Below, in pieces: positions 10,903-28,945 of a DNA stretch of 40,979 nt. Location: positions 1-40,979 of IMG/VR virus record IMGVR_UViG_3300033148_006664. The stretch is one strand, 5' to 3'. A program made the position numbers and the translations under genes. Each line of letters begins with the position of its first letter. Position 1 is the first letter of the stretch. The notes under the pieces are model-generated. The model searched no databases and had not been told where the DNA came from. It saw only the letters and a list, made by a program, of their open reading frames with translations. The DNA is from a virus.

Positions 10903-11084
10903 AGATATTTTTGGTTGGGACTCCTCCAGAATCGAGAACAAAAAAAATGATTGACTTAAACTGCAATCAGTTACTATTTTCTTACTTTGCCATCATTGAT
11001 ATTCATAGCTCATTTGACATGGACAAAGCTTTTTTAGTTGCAATAAAGGAAAAAGTAAAAAGAAAATGTACAGATCAAGAATAA
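10899..11084 (+). CDS. Small MKI.. protein resembling a detached DpdA N-terminal module (61 aa)
   Basis: ATG 10899 overlaps the helicase stop (ATGA). It encodes 61 residues beginning MKIFLVGTPPESRTKK, with NQLLFSYFAI near residue 26 and a basic helical tail. The pattern MKI-(F/I/Y)-(L/F)-A/V at the start and LL-SY-F/Y-x-I/L about 25 residues later recurs in small genes at 11587, 18641, 18790 and 19953. From memory it matches the N-terminal strand-helix-strand of phage DpdA/TGT-like proteins (MKI.LAG...L.SYYY.). It is probably an orphan module paired with the DpdA at 17697. Function is inferred only. Confidence 0.55.
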   Translation: MKIFLVGTPPESRTKKMIDLNCNQLLFSYFAIIDIHSSFDMDKAFLVAIKEKVKRKCTDQE

Positions 11085-11179: not shown

Positions 11180-11587
11180 ATGAATCAGGTAACAGTGGTT
11201 AAGGAATTTACTTTTGATGCTGCTCATCGTCTGCCGGGATATGAGGGAAAATGTAAAAATCTTCACGGCCATGGATACCGACTTTTAGTCGGAGTTAAAG
11301 GAAAGATAGACTATGACTCGGGAATGGTGATTGATTTTACCCATTTAAAAATCATAGTAAAACAGGAGATTCTTGATCATGTTGATCATGTTTTGCTCAA
11401 TGATTTAAAATCAGAACCCGGGCAACTTGGGTTTAACTTCCCTTGGGAAATGCCAACAGCGGAGAATATGGTTATTTGGATACTGAGTCGTTTACAGAAT
11501 AGGTGGGAGGAGGTGAGGATAGAGGGAAAGATATCTTTTGTTCGTCTCTATGAAACCCCAACATCATACGCAGAAGTGACGGCTTAA
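11180..11587 (+). CDS. queD: QueD, 6-carboxy-5,6,7,8-tetrahydropterin synthase
   Basis: Encodes 135 residues from ATG 11180, after GAAAGGAGAGG in a copy of the ACTATAAAC leader. The frame is open further upstream to 11066, but the family length (about 120-140) and ribosome site fit 11180. The zinc histidines (H16 in FDAAHRLPG, H29 and H31 in LHGHGY) and the catalytic cysteine (C25 in KCKN) are all present, as is the C-terminal LYETPTSYAEV. It converts dihydroneopterin triphosphate made by FolE (13511) to the carboxypterin used by QueE (11716). Confidence 0.93.
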   Translation: MNQVTVVKEFTFDAAHRLPGYEGKCKNLHGHGYRLLVGVKGKIDYDSGMVIDFTHLKIIVKQEILDHVDHVLLNDLKSEPGQLGFNFPWEMPTAENMVIWILSRLQNRWEEVRIEGKISFVRLYETPTSYAEVTA

Positions 11588-11758
11588 TGAAAATTTACTT
11601 AGCGGCCAGAGATGAGCATACTGCTCATATTATGATATAGCTGTAGAATCAATTCCATTCAGAAAAATAACATGGAAACTTATAATGAAACGTTATTTTG
11701 GAAAGGAGAAAGAAAATGATTATAAACGAAATCTTTACCAGTATCGACGGAGAAGTTA
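11587..11758 (+). pseudogene. MKI.. family small gene, interrupted by a frameshift
   Basis: ATG 11587 overlaps the queD stop (TAATGA) and encodes MKIYLAARDEHTAHIMI, then TAG at 11638. A -1 change near 11618 gives a continuation CSYYDIAVESIPFRKITWKL followed by IMKRYFGKEKEN, open to TAG 11756-11758 and overlapping the first codons of queE. The joined product has the MKI.LA start and SYY motif of the family (compare 10899 and 18641). It is therefore best read as a disrupted copy. The queE ribosome site lies within it. Confidence 0.5.
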
Positions 11759-12369
11759 GCACTTTTCATCAAGGAACAATGTCAACATTTATTCGTTTTG
11801 CCGGATGCAATTTAAAATGTCCTTACTGTGATACCAAGTATGCTCAGAAAGCAAATGCTGGGGAAATATATGAACAAGCTGCTATTTTTAATCTTGTTAA
11901 GGCTATTGGCTGTAAAAAAATTACGATTACTGGAGGAGAGCCCTTATTGCAGGTGAGAGAATTAATTCCTCTAATTAAAGAGCTTCTGTATAAAGGGCAT
12001 AAAGTCACAGTAGAAACAAATGGAAGTATTGAACTTCCCCAGGATTTATATGACGAGAATTTTGGTTGGGTTATTGATTACAAATTATGGTGTTGGGAAA
12101 AGATGATTACAAAAAACTTTACTCGTTTGACTTCTTGTGATTGGATTAAGTTGGTTCTTCAAAGCCCAGAAGAATACTATTTAGCAAAGGAAACAGTTTC
12201 CAGATTAAGAGATTTGGGGAGTCAAGCTAATGTGGCGTTGAGCACAGTATTTGGAAAATTCAATCCAGCAGATTTAATCTCAATGATTAAAAAGGACAAG
12301 TTTTGGGACGTGACTGTGAATGTGCAACTACATAAAATCATTTGGGATTTTGAAAAAAGAGGGATTTAA
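11716..12369 (+). CDS. queE: QueE, 7-carboxy-7-deazaguanine synthase (radical SAM)
   Basis: Encodes 217 residues from ATG 11716 after GGAAAGGAG. The radical-SAM cluster motif is C31-x3-C35-x2-C38 (AGCNLKCPYCDT). The family start IFTSIDGEV (normally IF.SIQGEG) and the SAM-binding GGEP (TITGGEPLLQ) are visible. It rearranges carboxytetrahydropterin to 7-carboxy-7-deazaguanine, the substrate of QueC (15127). The length is normal for QueE. Confidence 0.92.
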   Translation: MIINEIFTSIDGEVSTFHQGTMSTFIRFAGCNLKCPYCDTKYAQKANAGEIYEQAAIFNLVKAIGCKKITITGGEPLLQVRELIPLIKELLYKGHKVTVETNGSIELPQDLYDENFGWVIDYKLWCWEKMITKNFTRLTSCDWIKLVLQSPEEYYLAKETVSRLRDLGSQANVALSTVFGKFNPADLISMIKKDKFWDVTVNVQLHKIIWDFEKRGI

Positions 12370-12382
12370 AACAAAAAAAATA

Positions 12383-12410
12383 TTAAAAACATCTAAAAAT
12401 AATATATAAT
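12383..12410 (+). promoter_or_regulatory. Repeated-type promoter (TTAAAA-16-TATAAT)
   Basis: TTAAAA (12383-12388), 16 nt, TATAAT (12405-12410), then ACTTAGAAAGGAGGTG before the GTG start at 12432. It has the same 40-nt consensus as at 6832, 27722 and 30155. Confidence 0.75.
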
Positions 12411-12431
12411 ACTTAGAAAGGAGGTGAAAGA

Positions 12432-12869
12432 GTGAAAGAATCTATTTTAATAATTATCAATGGTAAGAAAAGATCTTATCCTTATGACGCCAATCCTAAC
12501 GAGATAATGTCGGATATTTTGTTAAGTATGCCAAATCTTAACTACTGGCCCTATCCTTCCTTGAAAAGTTTATACCTGGGTATAATGGATATGCTCGTTA
12601 ATTTTTATCATCCAATAACCAAATCTGTAAAAGGATCAGCAAAAACAAAAACAACAAAATTCCTTAAACAAGTAAATTCTGTAAAAAAATATTTTCCAAA
12701 AAATCAACCAGACCTTCTACGAAAGATATATGAATCGTGCTTGATAAATGAAGGTTTAGGGACATTGCGTGGATTTGGATTTACTAACCGTTTTGGAGAC
12801 AACCTGTCTGGGAATCCTGAAATCCATAGTATTCTTAAAGGAGGGAATCTTATAAGGAAAGAGAGATAG
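12432..12869 (+). CDS. Unknown phage protein (145 aa)
   Basis: Encodes 145 residues from a GTG start, 4-5 nt after the extended AAAGGAGGTG ribosome site supplied by the promoter cassette at 12383. It is basic and contains tryptophan/proline-rich NYWPYPSLKSLYLG and a glycine-rich end (GTLRGFGFTNRFGDNLSGN). No family is recognised. It lies alone between queE and the wing-helix gene at 12916, so a role in the deazaguanine pathway is possible but unsupported. Confidence 0.6.
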   Translation: MKESILIIINGKKRSYPYDANPNEIMSDILLSMPNLNYWPYPSLKSLYLGIMDMLVNFYHPITKSVKGSAKTKTTKFLKQVNSVKKYFPKNQPDLLRKIYESCLINEGLGTLRGFGFTNRFGDNLSGNPEIHSILKGGNLIRKER

Positions 12870-12915
12870 ACAGTCATTAACCATTTAATCAAAAAAAAGG
12901 AAAGGAGAAAAGAAA

Positions 12916-13407
12916 ATGGCGAAAAAGAAAAATAATGAACCCACAGTAAAGGAATTGATCGAGTTGGCAAAGGACCTGAACAACCTTATGGATCTTGAAC
13001 CAGCCTTACCAACAGCGCAGAAAACCACGAAAGATAAATTGATAAATGAGATCAAAAAGGTCACAAAAATGCTGGAGCCTGGTGACAAGTTGACAAAAGA
13101 ATCAATTACCACTTTAAAGGTCCTGGGATTTGAAATGCCAAAACCTCCAGAATCAAAACCATCGGAATCAAAACCTCCGAAAGAAAAGAAAGCAAAATCT
13201 GTCAAAGAGAAAAGCAGATATGGCCATAAGCTTGGCTCTCAGTCAGCCGCATTGGATGAACTCTTTTTCAAAGGAACTACCATTGAGAAAGCCGCTGAGA
13301 AATTAGGAGTAAAAGAAGGCAGAGTTAAAGGTCATCTCCAACATCTCAAAAAGGATAAAGGACTTGAAGTCAAAGAAAACAAGGGCGTTTTCAAGGTGGC
13401 CTCATAA
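12916..13407 (+). CDS. Winged-helix, lysine-rich DNA-binding-like protein (163 aa)
   Basis: Encodes 163 residues after AAAGGAGAAAAG. A basic N-terminal half has a proline/lysine/serine linker around 77-100 (SKPSESKPPKEKK). The C-terminal 65 residues (from YGHKLGSQSAALDELFFKG, then TIEKAAEKLGVKEGRVKGHL) read as a DUF3489/helix-turn-helix type winged domain with the final GVFKVA strand. It is probably a nucleoid- or transcription-associated DNA-binding protein. It ends just before the terminator-like hairpin upstream of folE. Confidence 0.65.
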   Translation: MAKKKNNEPTVKELIELAKDLNNLMDLEPALPTAQKTTKDKLINEIKKVTKMLEPGDKLTKESITTLKVLGFEMPKPPESKPSESKPPKEKKAKSVKEKSRYGHKLGSQSAALDELFFKGTTIEKAAEKLGVKEGRVKGHLQHLKKDKGLEVKENKGVFKVAS

Positions 13408-13438
13408 AGAGGAAAGGAAAAATTTAAAGATATAAGGA

Positions 13439-13499
13439 CTGGTGGGAAAAATCTTCAGAGAAGAACTTGAGAATATTCCCACCAGAACCTTTTTGTTTT
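13439..13499 (+). terminator. Terminator or attenuator in front of folE
   Basis: CTGGTGGGAA (13439-13448) pairs perfectly with TTCCCACCAG (13476-13485). TCTTC/GAAGA forms an inner stem (13452-13456 with 13460-13464), and a CCTTTTTGTTTT U-tract follows (13488-13499). It ends 11 nt before folE, whose ribosome site AAGGAG is just beyond, so it could stop upstream transcription or regulate folE by attenuation. Confidence 0.75.
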
Positions 13500-13510
13500 A
13501 AGGAGCTTTT

Positions 13511-14074
13511 ATGAAAGAAAAACAAATAGTAACCGAACTCCTAAAGTTAACAGGAGACGATCCAAGTAGAGAAGGACTGATTGAAACCCCTGAGAGAGTT
13601 GTTGAATCATTTAAACATTTATTCTCAGGATATAGTGAAAGTCCAGAAGATGTAATCAAGACCTTTGAAGATGAAGAAGAACAATTCGGAGGACTTATTT
13701 ATTTGAAGGATATCGAATTTTATAGTATGTGCGAACATCATATACTTCCATTTTATGGTAATGCTTTTATTGCTTACATTCCTAATGGACCTGTTATTGG
13801 AGCATCTAAAATGGCCCGTCTTTTGGATATCTTTTCCCGTCGACTCCAAATGCAGGAAAGAATTGGCGAGCAAGTTACCGAGGCTTTAATGAAGTACTTA
13901 AAACCTCTTGGGGCGGCGTGTCTAACCGAGGCAAAACACCTTTGTATTGCTTGTAGAGGAGTTGAAAAACAAAATTCTATTATGGGATACAGCTCTTTGA
14001 AAGGAATATTTTTGGAGGATTCTAACAAAGGTTTCGCTGCCAGAAGTGAATTAATGTCATTGTGGACCAGATAA
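13511..14074 (+). CDS. folE: FolE, GTP cyclohydrolase I
   Basis: Encodes 187 residues after AAGGAG. The zinc ligands are visible: C74 and H77 in MCEHHILPFYG and C145 in KHLCIACRG. The conserved GPVIGASKMARLLDIFSRRL block and the RG-x-EKQNS end are also there. Length matches bacterial FolE1. It converts GTP to dihydroneopterin triphosphate, the first step of 7-deazaguanine synthesis, and feeds QueD at 11180. Its stop shares a base with the start of the radical-SAM gene (TAATG). Confidence 0.95.
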   Translation: MKEKQIVTELLKLTGDDPSREGLIETPERVVESFKHLFSGYSESPEDVIKTFEDEEEQFGGLIYLKDIEFYSMCEHHILPFYGNAFIAYIPNGPVIGASKMARLLDIFSRRLQMQERIGEQVTEALMKYLKPLGAACLTEAKHLCIACRGVEKQNSIMGYSSLKGIFLEDSNKGFAARSELMSLWTR

Positions 14075-15090
14075 TGGAAATAGTAAAAGCTGAAATTTTA
14101 TGGACTAGAATCTGTCCTCTTAGATGTAGTTATTGTGGGATGGTTACTGGAAAAAGCAATTCCTTATCTTGTGAAAGTTGGTTAAAAGGAATTGATAATT
14201 TGAAAAAAATGGGATGTGGATTCATTGCATTCTATGGGGCTGAGCCCTTATATGATTTTGAAAAATTACCAGAAGTTGTAGGATATACCGAATCTTTAGG
14301 AATTCATACAACTGTTATAACTTCAGGAATGGTACCTAATTTTTGGAATAAGGTAGAACAACTTTATTTGTCCGGGGCAAAATCTTTATCAATGAGTTTT
14401 GATATTGAAGGAATAGACAAATCAAGTTCTCTCAAAAACAATCTCGCCGTTCCCGCCTTAACTCAATTTCTCCAGTTAGGGCGAGTTCGGGATGTTGCGG
14501 CTATTACAACATTGACAAGAAATAACTATAAACTATTTATTGATTCAGTGAAAAAAATGAGTCAGAAAAAAATCTGGAGTTTTTTTGATCTTATACATCA
14601 GGATAGGGGACAACCTGGAAGTAAATGCAAAAATTATCCAGAAATGCAAGAACTACTTTTCCGTAATGAAGACATAGTTCAGTTTATCTCATTCTTAAAT
14701 GAGTTATACGAATTAAAAGAACAGGGAGAATTATGTCATACAAGTAGGCTGTTCATTGACTTATTAAGGGACAATCCTAATCTACTAACAGACTACTCAT
14801 GGAATTGTGCTAATTATAAGGAATTTCCTTCATGGGTTACTGTAGATTGTGATGGCTTTGTTTACCCTTGCGATGACTTTCAACCTGATCTTGGATCGGG
14901 TAAAAAAATTTGTGTAACTGAGTTGTACAATCGTTGGCAAGAATTTCAAGACATATGGAAACCTATTGTGAAGGAAAATTGTCCTGGCTGTTTATGGGGG
15001 ACACATATTGATGCCCATTATATCAAGGCTGGGAAACTACCATTTGATAGTTATGTACATATAGGAGATTATTCAAGTGATAGAAAATAA
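14074..15090 (+). CDS. Radical-SAM enzyme of unknown substrate in the deazaguanine cluster
   Basis: Encodes 338 residues from ATG 14074, overlapping the folE stop; an earlier in-frame ATG lies inside folE. The radical-SAM CxxxCxxC is at C14, C18, C21 (RICPLRCSYCG), followed by FYGAEPLYD as the GGEP equivalent. The C-terminal third has further cysteines (NCANY, CDGFVYPCDDF, ENCPGCLWG), as in SPASM/twitch-type auxiliary cluster domains. It is distinct from QueE. Lying between folE and queC it may carry out an extra modification of the deazaguanine or a related precursor. The reaction is unknown. Confidence 0.85.
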   Translation: MEIVKAEILWTRICPLRCSYCGMVTGKSNSLSCESWLKGIDNLKKMGCGFIAFYGAEPLYDFEKLPEVVGYTESLGIHTTVITSGMVPNFWNKVEQLYLSGAKSLSMSFDIEGIDKSSSLKNNLAVPALTQFLQLGRVRDVAAITTLTRNNYKLFIDSVKKMSQKKIWSFFDLIHQDRGQPGSKCKNYPEMQELLFRNEDIVQFISFLNELYELKEQGELCHTSRLFIDLLRDNPNLLTDYSWNCANYKEFPSWVTVDCDGFVYPCDDFQPDLGSGKKICVTELYNRWQEFQDIWKPIVKENCPGCLWGTHIDAHYIKAGKLPFDSYVHIGDYSSDRK

Positions 15091-15126
15091 AGATTATGTA
15101 ATGAAAAACAAAAATAAGGAGATAAA

Positions 15127-15780
15127 ATGATTTTACTGTTTTCTGGTGGTATAGACTCCTTTGTTGCTTATCATTATTTAAATAAACCCCAAACTGTTTA
15201 TTTCGATTTAGGAACTCCCTATACTCATAGAGAGTTACGGGTAATTAAAAAACTGATACCTGATACAATTATCGACAATACACTTAATCTTAACAGTAGA
15301 CAGGTCGGTTCAAAAGCGTACATCCCTTTTAGAAACTTGTATTTAGCAATGCTTGCAGTGAAGTATGATCAAGAGATTTGTATTGCTGGAGTTAAAGATG
15401 ATGTCGTATCAGACAAAAATGAATTTATCTTTAAAGAATTTAGTCGGCTACTATCTATTATGAACCCAGGTATTTTAGTATTCAGTCCGTTCTGGCTAAT
15501 GTCGAAAGCGGAAGTTGTCAAGTGGTTTATAAAGAATGTTGGTAAGCCAGAATTATTACTCGATACCATTTCTTGTTACTCATCAACTGAAGTAAGTAAT
15601 TATTGTGGAGCTTGTCCTTCTTGTTTTAGAAAATGGACTGTCCTCCGAAGTCATGGAGTTGATATTGAATTTGTAGATCGAATACTAATGTTAAATTATT
15701 ATCAAGCGGCTAAAAAAGGACAATACTTACCAGAGAGGAATGTAGCAATTATAAGAGAAGTGGATGCCTATCTCACTTAA
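15127..15780 (+). CDS. queC: QueC, 7-cyano-7-deazaguanine (preQ0) synthase
   Basis: Encodes 217 residues after AAGGAG. The PP-loop ATPase motif SGGIDS is at 6-11. The QueC zinc site is complete (C150, C160, C163, C166 in SCYSS...YCGACPSCFRKW). It converts 7-carboxy-7-deazaguanine to preQ0 using ATP and ammonia. It is slightly shorter than bacterial QueC (about 220-230) but intact. Together with folE, queD and queE it completes preQ0 synthesis from GTP within this window. Confidence 0.93.
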   Translation: MILLFSGGIDSFVAYHYLNKPQTVYFDLGTPYTHRELRVIKKLIPDTIIDNTLNLNSRQVGSKAYIPFRNLYLAMLAVKYDQEICIAGVKDDVVSDKNEFIFKEFSRLLSIMNPGILVFSPFWLMSKAEVVKWFIKNVGKPELLLDTISCYSSTEVSNYCGACPSCFRKWTVLRSHGVDIEFVDRILMLNYYQAAKKGQYLPERNVAIIREVDAYLT

Positions 15781-15792
15781 AAAGGAGAACAC

Positions 15793-16389
15793 ATGGGAAG
15801 ACCTTTTGGACACGGCGTTAGTAATATAAAACAAGTGAGTGAATTATTTGGATTAATAGACTATATGATCGGTTTAAATTATAAAGCTTTTTCTTTTTTA
15901 GATATTGGATGTGGCAAAGGATTATATGGTAGTCTAATGAGAATGGTCTATGGTTGGAACATACAGTTGGTTGGTATTGATCTTGGAAGCTTCAAAAGAT
16001 TTGACAAACTAAATAATGAGATTTATAATGAGATTTATAAAATAGATGTTGTAGATTATATTCTAAGGAAGCGTTGTTTTAACCAGAAGTTTGATATTAT
16101 TTTAGGTCAGCAAATTTTTGAACATTTGAGAGAGAAAGATGCTCTCAAATGTTTAGATAAATTGAAATTATATGGTAAAGTAATTATTGTGGGATTTCCA
16201 AAACCAAAAAAAAATAACGATTATAAAGATATCAATAATCTCGCAAATCACAAATGGGGATGTTCTAATAAAAAGTTAAATTCAGTGGACTATAGACGTG
16301 TTAATAAAATTAAAAATAATCATGTTTATATTTGGATGGAAAATCCAAGAGGTGAAAAATGGTGGGAAATAGATGCTTATCTTAGTTGA
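15793..16389 (+). CDS. Class I SAM-dependent methyltransferase
   Basis: Encodes 198 residues after AAAGGAG. Motif I is FLDIGCGKGLYG (35-46), with the acidic VGIDLGS strand after it and FDIILGQQIFEHL as the active-site region. The last third is basic and aromatic (HVYIWMENPRG). It lacks the NPPY/SPPY motif of DNA amino-methylases, so the target may be a small molecule, the modified base or RNA. Its end overlaps the HAD gene start by 17 nt. It is inserted in the deazaguanine cluster, so base tailoring is possible. Confidence 0.75.
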   Translation: MGRPFGHGVSNIKQVSELFGLIDYMIGLNYKAFSFLDIGCGKGLYGSLMRMVYGWNIQLVGIDLGSFKRFDKLNNEIYNEIYKIDVVDYILRKRCFNQKFDIILGQQIFEHLREKDALKCLDKLKLYGKVIIVGFPKPKKNNDYKDINNLANHKWGCSNKKLNSVDYRRVNKIKNNHVYIWMENPRGEKWWEIDAYLS

Positions 16390-17008
16390 CATTGATGGAG
16401 TATTAACTTTAGAGTCAGAAGGATGGGGAAAAGATTATTATCCTTACAGGACCCCTAACTTTAAGGCAATAGGTAAGATTAATCGACTTGTGGACTTAGG
16501 ACACATGATTACTCTCTTTACTGCCCGATATGTTGAAGATAAACAAATGACTGAGGAATGGTTAGTAAAATACAATGTAAAATACACTAATATAATGTAT
16601 GGAAGAAAACCAGTATGTAATGTAATGATTGATGATAAAGCTATTCCAACAATTCCTGAAGATCTTGAAAAATATTTAAGTTACAACTTTCATAACTCAT
16701 GTTGGAGATTTAAACATGGATTTATTTCTCCGGACGAAAAACATCCTTGTTTCTTCTGTGGTTTTCAAATTGATATTTCTGTAATGGATTGTCCTAAATG
16801 TGGAATAATGCCATGTCCTAAATGTGGAAAGTGCCTTTGTAATATTCCATTACTAACTTATATAACTTTGATTAGAATACATGAAAAATATTGTTGTAAT
16901 TTACCTGAATTTGATGGAAAAATAAAACTAAGTGGTTTTGTGGATAATGATTTAATTTGTAATTGTGAAAAAACCTTATCTTATTGTAAAAGCCTGGAGA
17001 AGATATGA
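16373..17008 (+). CDS. HAD-like phosphatase fused to a cysteine-rich zinc-binding tail
   Basis: Encodes 211 residues starting inside the methyltransferase gene. The first 105 residues are a small HAD phosphohydrolase: VDIDGVL with D6 and D8, LFTAR, and NVMIDDKAI as motif IV. From residue 118 onward there are many cysteines: CFFCG, MDCPKCGIMPCPKCGKCLC, then CC and CNCE, arranged as tandem zinc ribbons. The order HAD then zinc ribbon is unusual. It may dephosphorylate an intermediate of the base-modification route or, less likely, an RNA end. It ends with a 4-nt overlap (ATGA) into the next gene. Confidence 0.75.
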   Translation: MLILVDIDGVLTLESEGWGKDYYPYRTPNFKAIGKINRLVDLGHMITLFTARYVEDKQMTEEWLVKYNVKYTNIMYGRKPVCNVMIDDKAIPTIPEDLEKYLSYNFHNSCWRFKHGFISPDEKHPCFFCGFQIDISVMDCPKCGIMPCPKCGKCLCNIPLLTYITLIRIHEKYCCNLPEFDGKIKLSGFVDNDLICNCEKTLSYCKSLEKI

Positions 17009-17682
17009 ATATAAGATGTAAGATATGTGGTTCCGGATCATGTAAAAATTTAATCTATCCGCAAGGTATTTTGAAATGTACTAACTGCGGTTGTACCTTT
17101 CGATCTACTAATGTAAATATAGAGTTTTATCATGAATCTGACTATTGGTATAAAGGGGATGAGGGATTAAAATTACATCAAAGAGCCAGATATGCTTGGT
17201 TCGAGGATTATATTCTTAATGGGGACTCAATAGAGTTTGGAGCAGCGGACGGTGATTTTACTTACTTAGTTAGAAGAAAAGTAGATTCCAAATATAGGGT
17301 CTTTTACTCGGAAATAAAAGATTTATTGAGAATGGAATATTCAGATTGTAATATTAGTAAATACATAGGTTCAATTGAGAGTTATAGAAGGAATCTTTTT
17401 TATCTCAATGTCTTCTTAGTAGATGTTATTGAGCACATAAATGACATTAGAGAAACCTTTGAACTTATTTATAGGATGTTGACACTTGGTGGTAGATTCT
17501 TTATAAGCACAAACGATGGGGATTCATTTGATGCCCATATACCAATGTTTTATCATCTTGAGCATACTTGTATGTTAACAAAAAAAGCCTTTGAAATTTT
17601 AACAAAGGACTTTGGTTTTAAAATTATCAGATATTTTAAAGCACCCCAAAATTGGATATATGTCATTCTTGAAAAAATATAG
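17005..17682 (+). CDS. Methyltransferase-like protein with N-terminal zinc ribbon
   Basis: Encodes 225 residues. The N-terminal zinc ribbon has C5/C8 (RCKICGSGSC) and C25/C28 (KCTNCGCTF). Then comes a class I methyltransferase core, with motif I SIEFGAADGDF at 75-85 and motif IV region FLVDVIEHIND. HLEHTCMLTKKAFEIL is typical of the Methyltransf_23 family of small-molecule methylases. The layout resembles zinc-finger C- or O-methyltransferases of modified sugars. It sits just before dpdA, so it may tailor the transferred base. Confidence 0.75.
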   Translation: MNIRCKICGSGSCKNLIYPQGILKCTNCGCTFRSTNVNIEFYHESDYWYKGDEGLKLHQRARYAWFEDYILNGDSIEFGAADGDFTYLVRRKVDSKYRVFYSEIKDLLRMEYSDCNISKYIGSIESYRRNLFYLNVFLVDVIEHINDIRETFELIYRMLTLGGRFFISTNDGDSFDAHIPMFYHLEHTCMLTKKAFEILTKDFGFKIIRYFKAPQNWIYVILEKI

Positions 17683-17696
17683 TTGAGGAGACCATT

Positions 17697-18644
17697 ATGA
17701 GAAAGGAAAAAATAAACTTATTTCTTGACTCTGGGGCTTACAGTGCATGGAGTAAAGGAGCAAAAATTTCTTTGCAAAAGTATATAGATTTTATTTATGA
17801 GCATAAACAATATTTAGAAGTGTATGTTAATCTTGATGATTTAAACAGTCCCGAAAAAACTTGGGAAAATCAAAAAGAGATGGAAAGACAAGGACTCTCT
17901 CCCTTACCAGTTTATCACTTTAAAGAAGATGAAAAATATTTACGAAAAGTTTTGGAATATGAATATTTTGGTTTAGGAGGAGCCGCTTTAGTAGCTACTC
18001 CAGTCAGGGCAAGATTTTACGATTACATCTTTTCTATAATATGTCCTGAAAGCAATTCTTATTTACCTACTCATAAAATACACGGCTTTGGTTTAACTTC
18101 TCTCAAGCTTATGCTTAGATATCCCTGGTACAGTGTAGACAGTACGTCCTGGGTAATGACAAGTCGAACAGGATCAATTTACATCCCAAGATATAAACAA
18201 GGAGAATGGATTTATGATGAGGATTCCTGGAAGGTAGCTATATCAAGTAAGTCTCCTTCCCAAAAAGAAGTAAATAAACATTTTAATACTTTTTCTCCTA
18301 AACAGCAGGACATCATTTTTCAATACTTCGAGGAAAAAGGATATAAATTAGGAAAGTCAGATTTGAAAAAGGTAGATAATAATTATAAACTCAAGGATGG
18401 AGAAAGATGGTTTGGTAAACAAGATGCTGATGCTCAAAGAGGAATTCATGGACTTAAAGATGGAAGGATTACTTTTGGTTGGTCAAAGGACAAAATAGTT
18501 GAAACAGTAATTGAGTCAGGTCTTAGTAATGATTATAAACAAAGAGATGAATTGAATGTTATTTATTTTCTTGACCTGGAAAAATCAATGCCAGAATGGC
18601 CTTGGCCCTTCAAAAAAAGACCATCAGGAGGTTTTGAGATATGA
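17697..18644 (+). CDS. dpdA: DpdA-like DNA 7-deazaguanine transferase (TGT superfamily)
   Basis: Encodes 315 residues after GAGGAG. It is related to tRNA-guanine transglycosylase: NLFLDSGAYSAW (D11) matches the TGT acceptor-side DSGGFQ, and WYSVDSTSW (D148) the nucleophile region. The IHGFGLTSLKLML stretch before it is typical of phage DpdA. It should swap guanine in DNA for preQ0 or a derivative. It begins with MRKEKI directly at the LFLDSGA strand and lacks the N-terminal MKI.LAG..SYYY module that phage DpdA proteins often have. That module appears instead as separate small genes (18641, 18790 and others). Confidence 0.85.
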   Translation: MRKEKINLFLDSGAYSAWSKGAKISLQKYIDFIYEHKQYLEVYVNLDDLNSPEKTWENQKEMERQGLSPLPVYHFKEDEKYLRKVLEYEYFGLGGAALVATPVRARFYDYIFSIICPESNSYLPTHKIHGFGLTSLKLMLRYPWYSVDSTSWVMTSRTGSIYIPRYKQGEWIYDEDSWKVAISSKSPSQKEVNKHFNTFSPKQQDIIFQYFEEKGYKLGKSDLKKVDNNYKLKDGERWFGKQDADAQRGIHGLKDGRITFGWSKDKIVETVIESGLSNDYKQRDELNVIYFLDLEKSMPEWPWPFKKRPSGGFEI

Positions 18645-19956: not shown

Positions 19957-20120
19957 AAATTTATTTTGCAGATACCATTATGAGAGAAACCGTCTCTTAC
20001 AAAAGACTTCCCAAAGTCAGACATAATCTCGAATCGTTTTGGAGAATTTTACTAACCAATCAAAAAATCAAAAAATGGAAAATCTTAAATACCAAAAATT
20101 TCTCGAACAGAAAACTATAG
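19953..20120 (+). CDS. MKI.. family small protein (55 aa), overlapping the helicase gene
   Basis: ATG 19953 overlaps the clamp stop (ATGA). It encodes 55 residues, starting MKIYFADTIMRETVSYKRL and with HNLESFWRILLTNQKIKKW in the place of the SYY block. The C-terminal 15 codons overlap the start of the helicase-methylase gene at 20075. It is the most divergent member of the family and may be decaying. Confidence 0.4.
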   Translation: MKIYFADTIMRETVSYKRLPKVRHNLESFWRILLTNQKIKKWKILNTKNFSNRKL

Positions 20121-22342
20121 AGGATATCAACTCGGGATTTCGACTTTCTTCCAATAAGTTGAATCCGATGTTGTTTAACTTTCAAAAAGATATCACAAAA
20201 TGGGCATTGATGAGAGGCCGCTCTGCCTGTTTTGCGGATTGTGGATTGGGCAAGACCCCTATCCAGTTGGATTGGGCAAACCATGTTGTGAAAAAAACCA
20301 AACTTCCCGTCTTGATATTCGCTCCTCTTGCCGTGTCAAAGCAGACACAAAGAGAAGGAATAAAATTCCATGTCCCTGTGAATATTTGCCGTAGGCAAAC
20401 TAATATTAAAAGGGGAATCAATATTACTAACTATGAAATGTTGAAGAATTTCAATTCTGATAATCTCGGAGGGATTGTATTGGACGAGAGTTCAATTTTG
20501 AAGGGATTTAATGGCAAATTCAGAAAGGCGATTACAGAGTTTGGTTCTCAAGTTCCTTTTCGATTCGCTTGTACGGCTACCCCAGCGCCAAATGATCTGC
20601 TTGAAATAATCAATCATGCCGAGTTCCTTGGGATAATGACAGAGAAAGAGATTAAATCGTTATTCTTTACCAATCGGGCTCAGGATATGGTTCAAAAATG
20701 GGTTCTCAAAGGCCATGCAAAACAAGCGTTTTGGAAGTGGCTTGCATCGTGGTCTGTAGCCCTACGTTCTCCTTCTGATTTAGGCTATGATAACGATGGA
20801 TTTATCCTGCCGGAATTAAGGATAATTCAAAAGACAATTCCTGCAACAAACAGAGATATCAAACCAGGAGAATTATTTGCGACTGAGGCAAGAGGTTTGA
20901 GAGACAGACAAATTGCAAGACAAAATAGTATTGAAAGTAGAATCGAACTATGTTCTGAAATGATAAACAAATCAAATGAAACGTGGTTAATTTGGTGCGA
21001 TCTTAATAAAGAGTCAAATTTACTTTCCAAGCAGATTAATAACTCGGTAGAAGTTAAAGGATCTGATTCATCACAACATAAGGAACAGTCGCTACTTGAT
21101 TTTCAGGATGGAAAAATCAAATGTCTTGTGACAAAGCCTTCTATTGCTGGATTTGGAATGAATTTTCAATCTTGTCACAATATGGCATTTGTCGGATTAA
21201 GCGATTCCTATGAAAAGTTTTATCAAGCGATGAGGAGATGCTGGCGATTTGGTCAAAAGCATTCTGTAAATGTTTATGTTATTACTACGGAAATTGAAGG
21301 GGGAGTGGTAAAGAATATCAAACGAAAGGAAAAAGATTCTACAAAAATGTTTAATGAGTTAATCTTAAATATGAATCTGTCAGGACAGCTTGGAACAAAA
21401 AGAGAGGAAATGATTTACATGGAAAAAATCAAGAAAGGGGAAGGGTGGGAATTACAATTGGGAGATAGTGTGTTGACAATGAAAAATATTAAGACGGATT
21501 CGATTGGGCTATCTGTTTTCAGTCCTCCGTTTCCTGGAATGTATGTATATACCAATAGCCAACATGATATTGGTAATACAAAATCTATTGAGGAGTTAAT
21601 TGAGCAATTCCGATTTGTCATTAATAAAGATCATCTCTTGAGAATTACTATGCCTGGTCGTCATTGTTGTATCCATCTATGCCAAGGAGTTGCTTTTCAA
21701 AGTAGAGATGGGTATATTGGTATTAAGGATTTCCGAGGTAAAGTAATACAAATGATGGAAAAAGAAGGTTGGATTTATTATGGAGAAGTTTGCATCGATA
21801 AGAATCCTCAAGTAACAGCTATCAGGACTAAAGATAGAGGCTTGCTTTTTAAAACATTGAGATCTGACGCTTCTCATTTGCATTGTGCCTTAGCGGATTA
21901 CTTATTGCAATTCAGAAAGCCTGGAGAAAATATTAATCCTATAAAAGCAGGAAAAAATAAAGAACAAGGATGGATTACTCAAGAAGAGTGGATTGAGTGG
22001 GCTGCTCCTGTTTGGTATAGACAAACTCCTCAATATCCTGGTGGTATAAGACAAACAGATGTTTTGAGAAATTATCAAGATGCAAAGAATAACAAAGACG
22101 AAAAACATTTGGCCCCTTTGCAACTTGGGGTAATCGAAAGGGCGATCAAATTATGGAGCAATCCAGGGGATATTATATATGACCCGTTCGCAGGAATTGG
22201 TTCAACGGGATATGTTGCTTTAAAACTTGAACGGAAATTCAAGGGATGCGAGCTCAAGAAAGGATATTATGACGTGGCAATAAGAAATTTGAAATCAGTT
22301 GGAAAAAGAAATAGGGGATTTAATATCGCGCAGGTAAAATAA
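20075..22342 (+). CDS. SNF2-like helicase fused to a DNA methyltransferase
   Basis: Encodes 755 residues from ATG 20075; an alternative TTG at 20039 is in frame. The first 420 residues are a superfamily 2 ATPase (DCGLGKT 55-61, LDES 136-139, CTATPAP, and MRRCWRFGQK as the last motif). The C-terminal 280 residues are a DNA methylase: SPPF at 483-486 (motif IV) precedes DPFAGIGST at 703-711 (motif I), an order typical of beta-class N4-cytosine or N6-adenine methylases. LADYLLQFRKPGENINPI is also a methylase block. No nuclease is seen. The fusion could give processive modification of phage DNA or self-marking. Confidence 0.88.
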   Translation: MENLKYQKFLEQKTIEDINSGFRLSSNKLNPMLFNFQKDITKWALMRGRSACFADCGLGKTPIQLDWANHVVKKTKLPVLIFAPLAVSKQTQREGIKFHVPVNICRRQTNIKRGINITNYEMLKNFNSDNLGGIVLDESSILKGFNGKFRKAITEFGSQVPFRFACTATPAPNDLLEIINHAEFLGIMTEKEIKSLFFTNRAQDMVQKWVLKGHAKQAFWKWLASWSVALRSPSDLGYDNDGFILPELRIIQKTIPATNRDIKPGELFATEARGLRDRQIARQNSIESRIELCSEMINKSNETWLIWCDLNKESNLLSKQINNSVEVKGSDSSQHKEQSLLDFQDGKIKCLVTKPSIAGFGMNFQSCHNMAFVGLSDSYEKFYQAMRRCWRFGQKHSVNVYVITTEIEGGVVKNIKRKEKDSTKMFNELILNMNLSGQLGTKREEMIYMEKIKKGEGWELQLGDSVLTMKNIKTDSIGLSVFSPPFPGMYVYTNSQHDIGNTKSIEELIEQFRFVINKDHLLRITMPGRHCCIHLCQGVAFQSRDGYIGIKDFRGKVIQMMEKEGWIYYGEVCIDKNPQVTAIRTKDRGLLFKTLRSDASHLHCALADYLLQFRKPGENINPIKAGKNKEQGWITQEEWIEWAAPVWYRQTPQYPGGIRQTDVLRNYQDAKNNKDEKHLAPLQLGVIERAIKLWSNPGDIIYDPFAGIGSTGYVALKLERKFKGCELKKGYYDVAIRNLKSVGKRNRGFNIAQVK

Positions 22343-27970: not shown

Positions 27971-28945
27971 ATGACATACAAAAGACAAAAGGAAAATGGG
28001 AATGAAAGATACCAGGAATATCAACGCGACAAGGGAATTGTAAGAATGCTATTGAGAACCAGGTTAAAATTTCAAGATGTCCGCAAAGCCCAGGATAACC
28101 AGATCGGAAGAAAGGCGGATGGAAAAGACCAAAACTTGACTATTGGTAAGGCCATACAAGCAGATGATTGGGAAATGTTTATAAGGATTGCTGATGAAGC
28201 TCGAAGACAAGAAAAAGAAATTGAAAAGGATCTGGATAAAAGACTCAAACGTTTTTCAATCCATGACTGGTTAAAGCAACAGAAAGGAGTGGGAACAATA
28301 GCCATGGCTACAATCCTTGGCCACTTTGATATTTACAAGGCAACTACAGTTTCCAAGATGTGGCAGTTTGCAGGATTGAATCCGGGTTTGATCAGAGGAA
28401 AAAAGTCAGTTAAGAAAAAAGATTACAAGCCAGAGATGGGAGAAATTGAAAGAGAATTGCCACCGACAAGAAAAGAAGAAAAAAGGATAATTGTTATAAC
28501 CGATACTTTAATCAGAGGCGATCAAAACGCTCCCGGATTTCTAAGCCCATTTAATAAGACATTAAGAACAGCCTTGGTTGGAGTCCTGGCTGATGGCTTT
28601 ATCAAAGCTCAAGCCCCTTATGCTCTGGATCATTATTATGCATTGCATATACCAGAACAATATCGAACTGACAAGGAAAAGATGAAGGCCAAACCCCACT
28701 TTGCAGGGCAATATGGAAGGTTGGATTTAAGTGAACGGATCACCCAGGAAAGAAAGAAAGGAGGGAAAATAATTGAAGTGATGTGGAAGGACACGACAGA
28801 CGGCCATCGAGATAGAGCAGCTAAACGGAAAATGATCAAGGAATTCCTGAAAGATTTATATGCAGAGTGGCGAAAAGTTGAGGGATTGGAAGTCCGTGTT
28901 CCTTATGCAGAGGAGTATTTGGGCAAAATGCACAAGGCGGCTTAG
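27971..28945 (+). CDS. tasA: Tas protein, Nop/Transposase_20-like RNA-guide-binding protein without a nuclease domain (TasA type)
   Basis: Encodes 324 residues. The start directly follows array 1; its ribosome site AGGAG (27959-27963) lies in the last spacer and terminal repeat. An N-terminal helical, basic region is followed by a helix-hairpin-helix core KGVGTIAMATIL (105-116) and FAGLNPG (133-139). The C-terminal HRDRAAKRKMIKEFLKDLY (279-297) is like the end of IS110-type Transposase_20 domains, the fold shared with Nop proteins of box C/D RNPs. There is no N-terminal DEDD RuvC-like domain, no HNH and no RuvC. In known TIGR-Tas systems the Nop protein binds 36-nt tigRNAs and targets DNA; here it would bind without cutting. 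Confidence 0.88.
   Translation: MTYKRQKENGNERYQEYQRDKGIVRMLLRTRLKFQDVRKAQDNQIGRKADGKDQNLTIGKAIQADDWEMFIRIADEARRQEKEIEKDLDKRLKRFSIHDWLKQQKGVGTIAMATILGHFDIYKATTVSKMWQFAGLNPGLIRGKKSVKKKDYKPEMGEIERELPPTRKEEKRIIVITDTLIRGDQNAPGFLSPFNKTLRTALVGVLADGFIKAQAPYALDHYYALHIPEQYRTDKEKMKAKPHFAGQYGRLDLSERITQERKKGGKIIEVMWKDTTDGHRDRAAKRKMIKEFLKDLYAEWRKVEGLEVRVPYAEEYLGKMHKAA

Follow-up and report, generated by a model that had tools for sequence, protein, structure and literature searches.

Phages use modified bases against restriction and CRISPR, and those phage 7-deazaguanine bases that are known to us bear only small groups at position 7. In the known DpdA systems (9g, with dG+, and CAjan, with dPreQ0), FolE, QueD, QueE, a PF06508 protein and DpdA are encoded in one cluster, and the accessible part of the 2019 phage survey that covers them names FolE, QueD, QueE, QueC, Gat-QueC, QueF and ArcS only (PMC6884629). 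The present analysis concerns 40,979 nucleotides of viral DNA (the window; the 41 kb IMG/VR record IMGVR_UViG_3300033148_006664), which carries a cluster of this kind at positions 11180-18644. Like the systems described in that part of the survey, it combines the five genes; unlike them, it has a non-canonical QueC, a radical S-adenosylmethionine (SAM) enzyme (rSAM) predicted to have the BlsE fold, an AfhF-like HAD phosphatase domain and methyltransferases that vary between loci, and neither QueF nor GATase was found in the window. We read the cluster, with a probability of roughly 0.6, as a phage pathway for 7-deazaguanine DNA hypermodification with a conserved core of rSAM, non-canonical QueC and HAD. 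We would class the system as a new variation on phage 7-deazaguanine DNA modification, and not as a separate kind, but its enzyme module appears to be undescribed: the main text of a 2026 survey of the QueC family does not contain the terms "HAD", "radical SAM" or "DpdA" (PMC13329287).

When IMG/VR was scanned with an alignment of divergent QueC sequences, 80 loci were retrieved, and a separate scan with an rSAM alignment gave 40 (related loci and contigs are cited below by L numbers); the two scans independently recovered the same gene neighbourhood. The rSAM is present in 39 of the 85 non-redundant viral loci with a divergent QueC, on the same strand in every case (39/39) and at most 250 bases from QueC in 27 of the 39. 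The HAD lies within 3 kb in 34 of these 39 loci, compared with 11 of the 46 loci that lack the rSAM (Fisher p about 4e-9, on loci that are related to one another). Within the stretch in view, DpdA can be recognised in 34 of the 39, and where at least 5 kb is available on each side (n=28), FolE, QueD and QueE were found in 26, 22 and 23 loci, respectively. In ten loci, dispersed over the QueC tree, QueC and HAD are fused into one protein (L022, L024, L026, L094, L103, L113, L127, L128, L129 and L132). Gene order differs in some loci (L029, L118-L121, L127), which argues against inheritance purely as one block. Because of the recurrent co-occurrence, the QueC-HAD fusions and the converging rSAM search, we consider rSAM, QueC and HAD to form the conserved core. 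An earlier note, made from the sequence alone, had stated that the enzyme set fits no known route; this is well supported, and can now be extended to the conserved core. Its treatment of the additional genes as equal tailoring enzymes did not hold up, as rSAM and HAD are core partners of QueC, and the methyltransferases and the zinc ribbon are optional.

Outside IMG/VR, the rSAM alignment retrieved one locus from genome contigs, with the same cluster, on a phage-like contig in a Sulfuricurvum metagenome-assembled genome; a scan of genome contigs with a single rSAM sequence found nothing. Among 50,697 GenBank phage records, the rSAM sequences of the window, L119 and L129 had no relatives beyond a few low-identity general rSAM matches, and a DNA-level search of GenBank phages matched folE only. 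Conserved in dozens of contigs from uncultivated viruses, and not found in the GenBank phage records, the module may represent a branch that has yet to be explored, with a repurposed QueC and new radical chemistry. It could also provide enzymes for DNA labelling, and forms a defined three-gene set.

The QueC of the window shares with canonical QueC (PF06508 Cluster 1; PMC13329287) the SGGxDS loop (S6-S11), the P67-x-R69-N70 motif, the conserved Lys, the SCY tyrosine and the zinc cysteines (C150/C160/C163/C166, with a spacing one residue longer than C(x)8CxxCxxC). Unlike canonical QueC (PMC13329287), it has lost the YxQxHxxE signature (L28-G-T30 instead) and YPDC (V94-S-D96-K instead), and its relatives often carry a C-terminal HAD fusion. 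Most rSAM-linked QueCs have V-x-D-K in place of YPDC; the motif Asp is invariant (85/85), and no aromatic occurs among the residues listed at this position, in rSAM-linked or rSAM-less proteins. Characteristic residues (e.g., K90-D91-D92-x-V94, W123 and W133) mark the rSAM-linked QueCs off from their rSAM-less relatives. The window protein groups, with support, in a clade of 24 QueCs; 22 of these come from loci with the rSAM, and on the contigs of the other two (L012, L024) the sequence upstream is too short to tell.

In E. coli QueC, the substitutions Y35A, R99A and Y131A each abolish function (PMC13329287). In Cap9, a QueC homolog that links 7-carboxy-7-deazaguanine (CDG) to a protein amine, the motif Tyr forms a stack with the deazaguanine, whose Watson-Crick edge is read by the Asp (PMC13279940). 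As the motif Asp is kept but YxQxHxxE and YPDC are lost, the divergent QueC would handle 7-deazaguanine differently; it probably still recognises a 7-deazaguanine, which is then processed in another way. In structural comparison the QueC domain is about equally close to QatC (Z 17.5), QueC (Z 17.4) and Cap9 (Z 16.8). Cap9 and QatC (PMC13279940) thus share its fold, and Cap9 sets a precedent in that the amine it joins to CDG is not ammonia; it retains, however, a YPDC-type (YxDC) motif that the window QueC lacks, and the partners here are rSAM, HAD and DpdA rather than CD-NTase or QatB. The proposal in the earlier note that queC and its neighbours make preQ0 and insert it into DNA stands in part: a 7-deazaguanine DNA-modification locus is well supported, but its QueC is non-canonical. 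Gat-QueC is present in the rSAM-containing relatives L028, L083 and L119-L121. The occurrence of two QueC genes in L028, L034, L083 and L119-L121 was considered as proof of a role other than preQ0 synthesis and was rejected, since a normal G+ route could involve both a Gat-QueC and a separate QueC. Second rSAM paralogs adjoin Gat-QueC in three loci (L119:8989-9936, L120:10166-11182 and L121:8962-9921), which suggests an even longer pathway there.

The rSAM contains the CxxxCxxC motif (C18/C22/C25) and four auxiliary cysteines (C249, C270, C307 and C310), all invariant or nearly so among 19 members, in agreement with the earlier description of a second radical-SAM enzyme with auxiliary cysteine motifs. 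The four would suffice for one auxiliary cluster of the twitch type; the seven-cysteine, two-cluster SPASM domain was not found, and the Pfam SPASM match is below cutoff. The closest solved fold to its AlphaFold (AF2) model (pLDDT 93) is that of BlsE (PDB 7vob; Z 24.8, root-mean-square deviation 3.6 over 304 residues, 15% identity). SuiB (Z 21.4), SkfB (20.9), PqqE (19.8) and the viperins (about 19) follow. BlsE is a cytosylglucuronate decarboxylase, whose substrate is a nucleoside with a sugar acid.

In the HAD domain the catalytic residues DxD...(T/S)...K...DD are intact. Its closest solved sequence is AfhF of phage HY126 (PDB 9iqw; E 4.5e-6, about 31% identity), also the closest fold (QueC-HAD fusion model versus 9iqw: Z 12.4, deviation 1.5 over 77 residues). 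Both are phage HADs, and no sugar nucleotidyltransferase partner was found here. The activity of AfhF, D-arabinose 1,5-diphosphate phosphatase, is taken from the PDB title, as no paper on AfhF was found. Enterococcus phage 9183 has a related HAD next to sugar-nucleotide genes, and T4-like phages (e.g., Acinetobacter Ac42) are among the weak tblastn matches of the window HAD; RB69, a T4-like phage, contains arabinosylated hydroxymethylcytosine (PMC6024577).

The same virus was found again, independently, as IMG/VR contig 3300033153_009650 (89 kb), which is 97-99% identical to the window across the cluster, with every open reading frame (ORF) intact. The codon differences between the two (synonymous/nonsynonymous) amount to 15/2 in rSAM, 2/0 in QueC, 3/0 in HAD, 15/4 in DpdA and 13/7 in FolE. 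They are mostly synonymous; the ORFs of the cluster are real genes, most of which look to be under purifying selection. In both records, either of which may be incomplete, the QueF model gave only a sub-cutoff match on FolE and GATase_7 was absent; no ArcS search was made. A near relative that lacks the module, L003, has a DpdA 70-72% identical to that of the window, and its locus opens with the same genes, queD, queE, the X145 homolog and the helix-turn-helix (HTH) gene. Thereafter, L003 encodes DUF6884, a canonical QueC and a phosphoribosyltransferase (PRT)-FolE fusion immediately before DpdA; the equivalent stretch of the window holds FolE, rSAM, the divergent QueC, the methyltransferase MT1, the HAD-zinc-ribbon protein and the methyltransferase MT2. 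The module thus appears to behave like a replaceable cassette within the dpd locus. In the 89 kb relative, about 290 bases absent from the window lie between rSAM and QueC (L002:7100-7400), and apparently code for a remnant of a homing endonuclease. The same contig (L135, contig positions 62000-78000) has many glycosyltransferase-, SDR-, rSAM-, methyltransferase- and acyltransferase-like genes beside a probable capsid gene, a set that resembles virion glycosylation.

In the pathway that we propose, FolE, QueD and QueE would produce CDG, as their clear homology indicates. The QueC homolog would adenylate the 7-deazaguanine carboxylate and then form an amide with ammonia or with a larger amine, consistent with its ATP loop, RN motif and Asp and with the Cap9 precedent. 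Together with QueC, the rSAM and HAD would add a substituent or trim one, and this group might come from a sugar phosphate; the step is the weakest of the scheme. DpdA, judged by homology, would put the finished base into DNA in place of guanine, and accessory methyltransferases (in other loci glycosyltransferases or an FkbM enzyme) would cap or diversify it. Such a base would not be preQ0, ADG, preQ1 or G+, and we consider it likely that the final base is new. That QueC, rSAM and HAD share one pathway acting on a 7-deazaguanine may be regarded as fairly supported; that QueC links CDG to an amine, and that the added group is sugar-derived, would be weakly supported, and a sugar-derived, methylated side chain is our working guess. 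The most specific version, in which QueC would ligate CDG to a non-ammonia amine bearing a sugar- or polyol-phosphate group, the rSAM would modify this group, the HAD would dephosphorylate it, and DpdA would insert the bulky product into DNA for O-methylation or glycosylation there, to give a queuine-like base of an as yet unseen chemical type, we consider doubtful.

Several observations weigh against the hypermodification pathway. It is known here from genes and models, and its chemistry is predicted. The association of rSAM with HAD falls largely within clades, and a test on phylogenetically independent pairs, of which there are only four, is non-significant. Three rSAM-containing records (L126, which is truncated, L129 and L132) lack DpdA by the models tried, and two others (L034 and L083) give only sub-cutoff TGT matches in its place. 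The likeness to BlsE is one of fold and that to AfhF one of sequence and fold, and neither fixes the substrate of the rSAM or of the HAD. Sugar nucleotidyltransferases of the Pfam family NTP_transferase (PF00483) were sought in 16 related module records and none was found; the route through nucleotide sugars that has been proposed for RB69 is thus not supported, and a direct sugar-phosphate route is possible. Finally, in the ordinary-looking gut-phage dpd loci L007 and L008, which show neither rSAM nor HAD, a QueC of the same broad lineage as that of the window is the sole QueC in view, and loss of the YPDC tyrosine alone is therefore no proof of a new product.

It may well be that proteins of this lineage produce ADG or preQ0 too, and this underlies one alternative, in which the divergent QueC of the window makes one of these bases for insertion by DpdA, and the rSAM, HAD and methyltransferases are linked genes that serve another phage function (e.g., glycan or nucleotide metabolism). 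The ATP, zinc and RN motifs of QueC are intact, and the 89 kb relative has a large glycan-type gene set elsewhere. In phages with FolE, QueD, QueE, QueC and DpdA, dPreQ0 or dADG has been either predicted or demonstrated (PMC6884629). Such a division of roles would leave the rSAM adjoining QueC in most of the 39 loci, the repeated QueC-HAD fusions and the rSAM-specific QueC residues without a reason, and we hold it to be unlikely, if still the one to be taken most seriously. The new enzymes might otherwise offer a new route to a base of known type, by decarboxylation to 7-deazaguanine, for example, or as a methylated or formylated preQ1; small derivatives of this kind (dDG, methyl- and formyl-dPreQ1) were reportedly found in phages in 2023. 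BlsE, the closest fold, is indeed a decarboxylase, and methyltransferases are present, but decarboxylation needs no QueC and leaves the HAD unexplained, and the QueF needed for preQ1 was not found in the window or in the 89 kb relative. We regard this as distinctly improbable. Modification of a protein instead of DNA, which Cap9/Cap10 carry out in type IV CBASS and which has been proposed for QatC, is suggested by the structure of the QueC domain, about as close to Cap9 or QatC as it is to QueC. It seems very improbable indeed, given a transglycosylase of the phage DpdA family (phrog_887), loci that lie in phage replication modules rather than defence operons, CBASS partners that were not found, and the missing YPDC-type motif of Cap9 (PMC13329287).

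The accessory genes around the rSAM-QueC-HAD core are swappable. Both class I methyltransferases of the earlier note, one of them with a zinc ribbon, were recovered by family searches (Table 1); neither has a strong sequence relative in the PDB. MT1 occurs in four independent loci (homologs in L027/L102, L094 and L098) and MT2 in three (homologs in L014/L095 and L062). Other module loci contain different methyltransferase types, an FkbM-zinc-ribbon fusion, glycosyltransferases or an SDR. The zinc-ribbon tail attributed to the HAD is present, as is the HAD itself, but it is better described as a mobile module, with three architectures: fused to the HAD, free-standing (L012) and joined to an FkbM methyltransferase (L021). 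This varied set fits a late and variable capping of a common core product. An AdoMet decarboxylase (PF02675, 6e-20) lies between the methyltransferases and Gat-QueC in the rSAM-containing dpd cluster of L028 (L028:5481-6305); as a general sign of aminopropylation it was dropped, being found in this one cluster only. The PRT-FolE fusion was likewise rejected as a core part, since a long FolE is found in 10 of the 34 rSAM-containing loci with FolE in view, and also in the rSAM-less L003 and L004. In this fusion, seen in L003:4380-5273, L004:4496-5341, L133:2565-3449 and others, the N-terminal phosphoribosyltransferase possibly salvages guanine released by DpdA.

All the enzyme genes of the cluster lie on the + strand (Table 1), and the folE, queD, queE, queC and DpdA-like genes listed in the earlier note each match their family. 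For QueD, homologs favour the start ATG 11180, although the longest ORF opens at 11066; for the rSAM they favour ATG 14074, which overlaps the folE stop, and not GTG 14062. DpdA is about 34-41% identical to the DpdA of many phages across its N-terminal 200-245 residues, and resembles proteins of 190 phage records, many of them labelled as queuine tRNA-ribosyltransferase or DpdA-type.

Table 1. Positions of the genes and domains of the cluster in the window, with the supporting matches
Feature	Position	Strand	Evidence
QueD (6-carboxytetrahydropterin synthase)	11180..11587	+	TIGR03367 97.8 bits (cutoff 89.25); PF01242 (PTPS) 2.7e-34
QueE (CDG synthase, radical SAM)	11716..12369	+	phrog_2076 4e-35; TIGR03963 1.3e-51; longest ORF from TTG 11698
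X145, 145-aa protein, no function assigned	12432..12869	+	homologs as neighbour in L003, L017, L133
Lysine-rich HTH protein	12916..13407	+	weak Sigma70_r4 matches; homologs in most of the related dpd loci, and in most rSAM-containing ones
FolE (GTP cyclohydrolase I)	13511..14074	+	PF01227 5e-60; TIGR00063 above cutoff
Radical-SAM enzyme (rSAM)	14074..15090	+	PF04055 4e-13; longest ORF from GTG 14062
Divergent QueC-family ATP-dependent ligase (predicted)	15127..15780	+	PF06508 3.5e-14
MT1, class I SAM methyltransferase	15793..16389	+	Methyltransf_25 3.5e-5, under its cutoff
HAD phosphatase domain, AfhF-like	16373..16675	+	phrog_1238 2e-16; phmmer to 9iqw E 4.5e-6
Cysteine-rich zinc-ribbon-like module, fused to HAD	16676..17008	+	alignment with homologs
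MT2, zinc-ribbon class I SAM methyltransferase	17005..17682	+	Methyltransf_23 9e-7, over its cutoff; CxxC..CxxC ribbon
DpdA, predicted phage DNA 7-deazaguanine transglycosylase	17697..18644	+	phrog_887 2e-44

Among the related loci, an rSAM-containing cluster carries a tandem pair of DpdA genes (L020:9818-11745). In three others DpdA is apparently split by intein-like inserts with a homing-endonuclease-like middle (L010:8671-10869, L059:8680-10875 and L035:14243-16690; 732-816 aa), and one QueE has an apparent intein-like insert with an HNH-like middle (L016:3806-5515; 570 aa). A further DpdA locus has no QueC in view and a class I methyltransferase instead (L005:6758-7612), which might mean a methylated CDG base.

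The neighbours of the cluster in the window form, by family search, a phage replication module composed of an SNF2 helicase, a primase, a DnaD-like protein, a clamp loader and RecA/UvsX; a sliding clamp and DNA polymerase III alpha were recognised in the same neighbourhood by reading the sequence. A transposase-like gene (phrog_4285) is located at 27971-28945, in a stretch that does not align to the 89 kb relative. At 20039-22342 a helicase C-terminal domain is fused to an N6/N4 DNA methyltransferase, and L003 contains an ORF of similar length and appearance (11263-13542).

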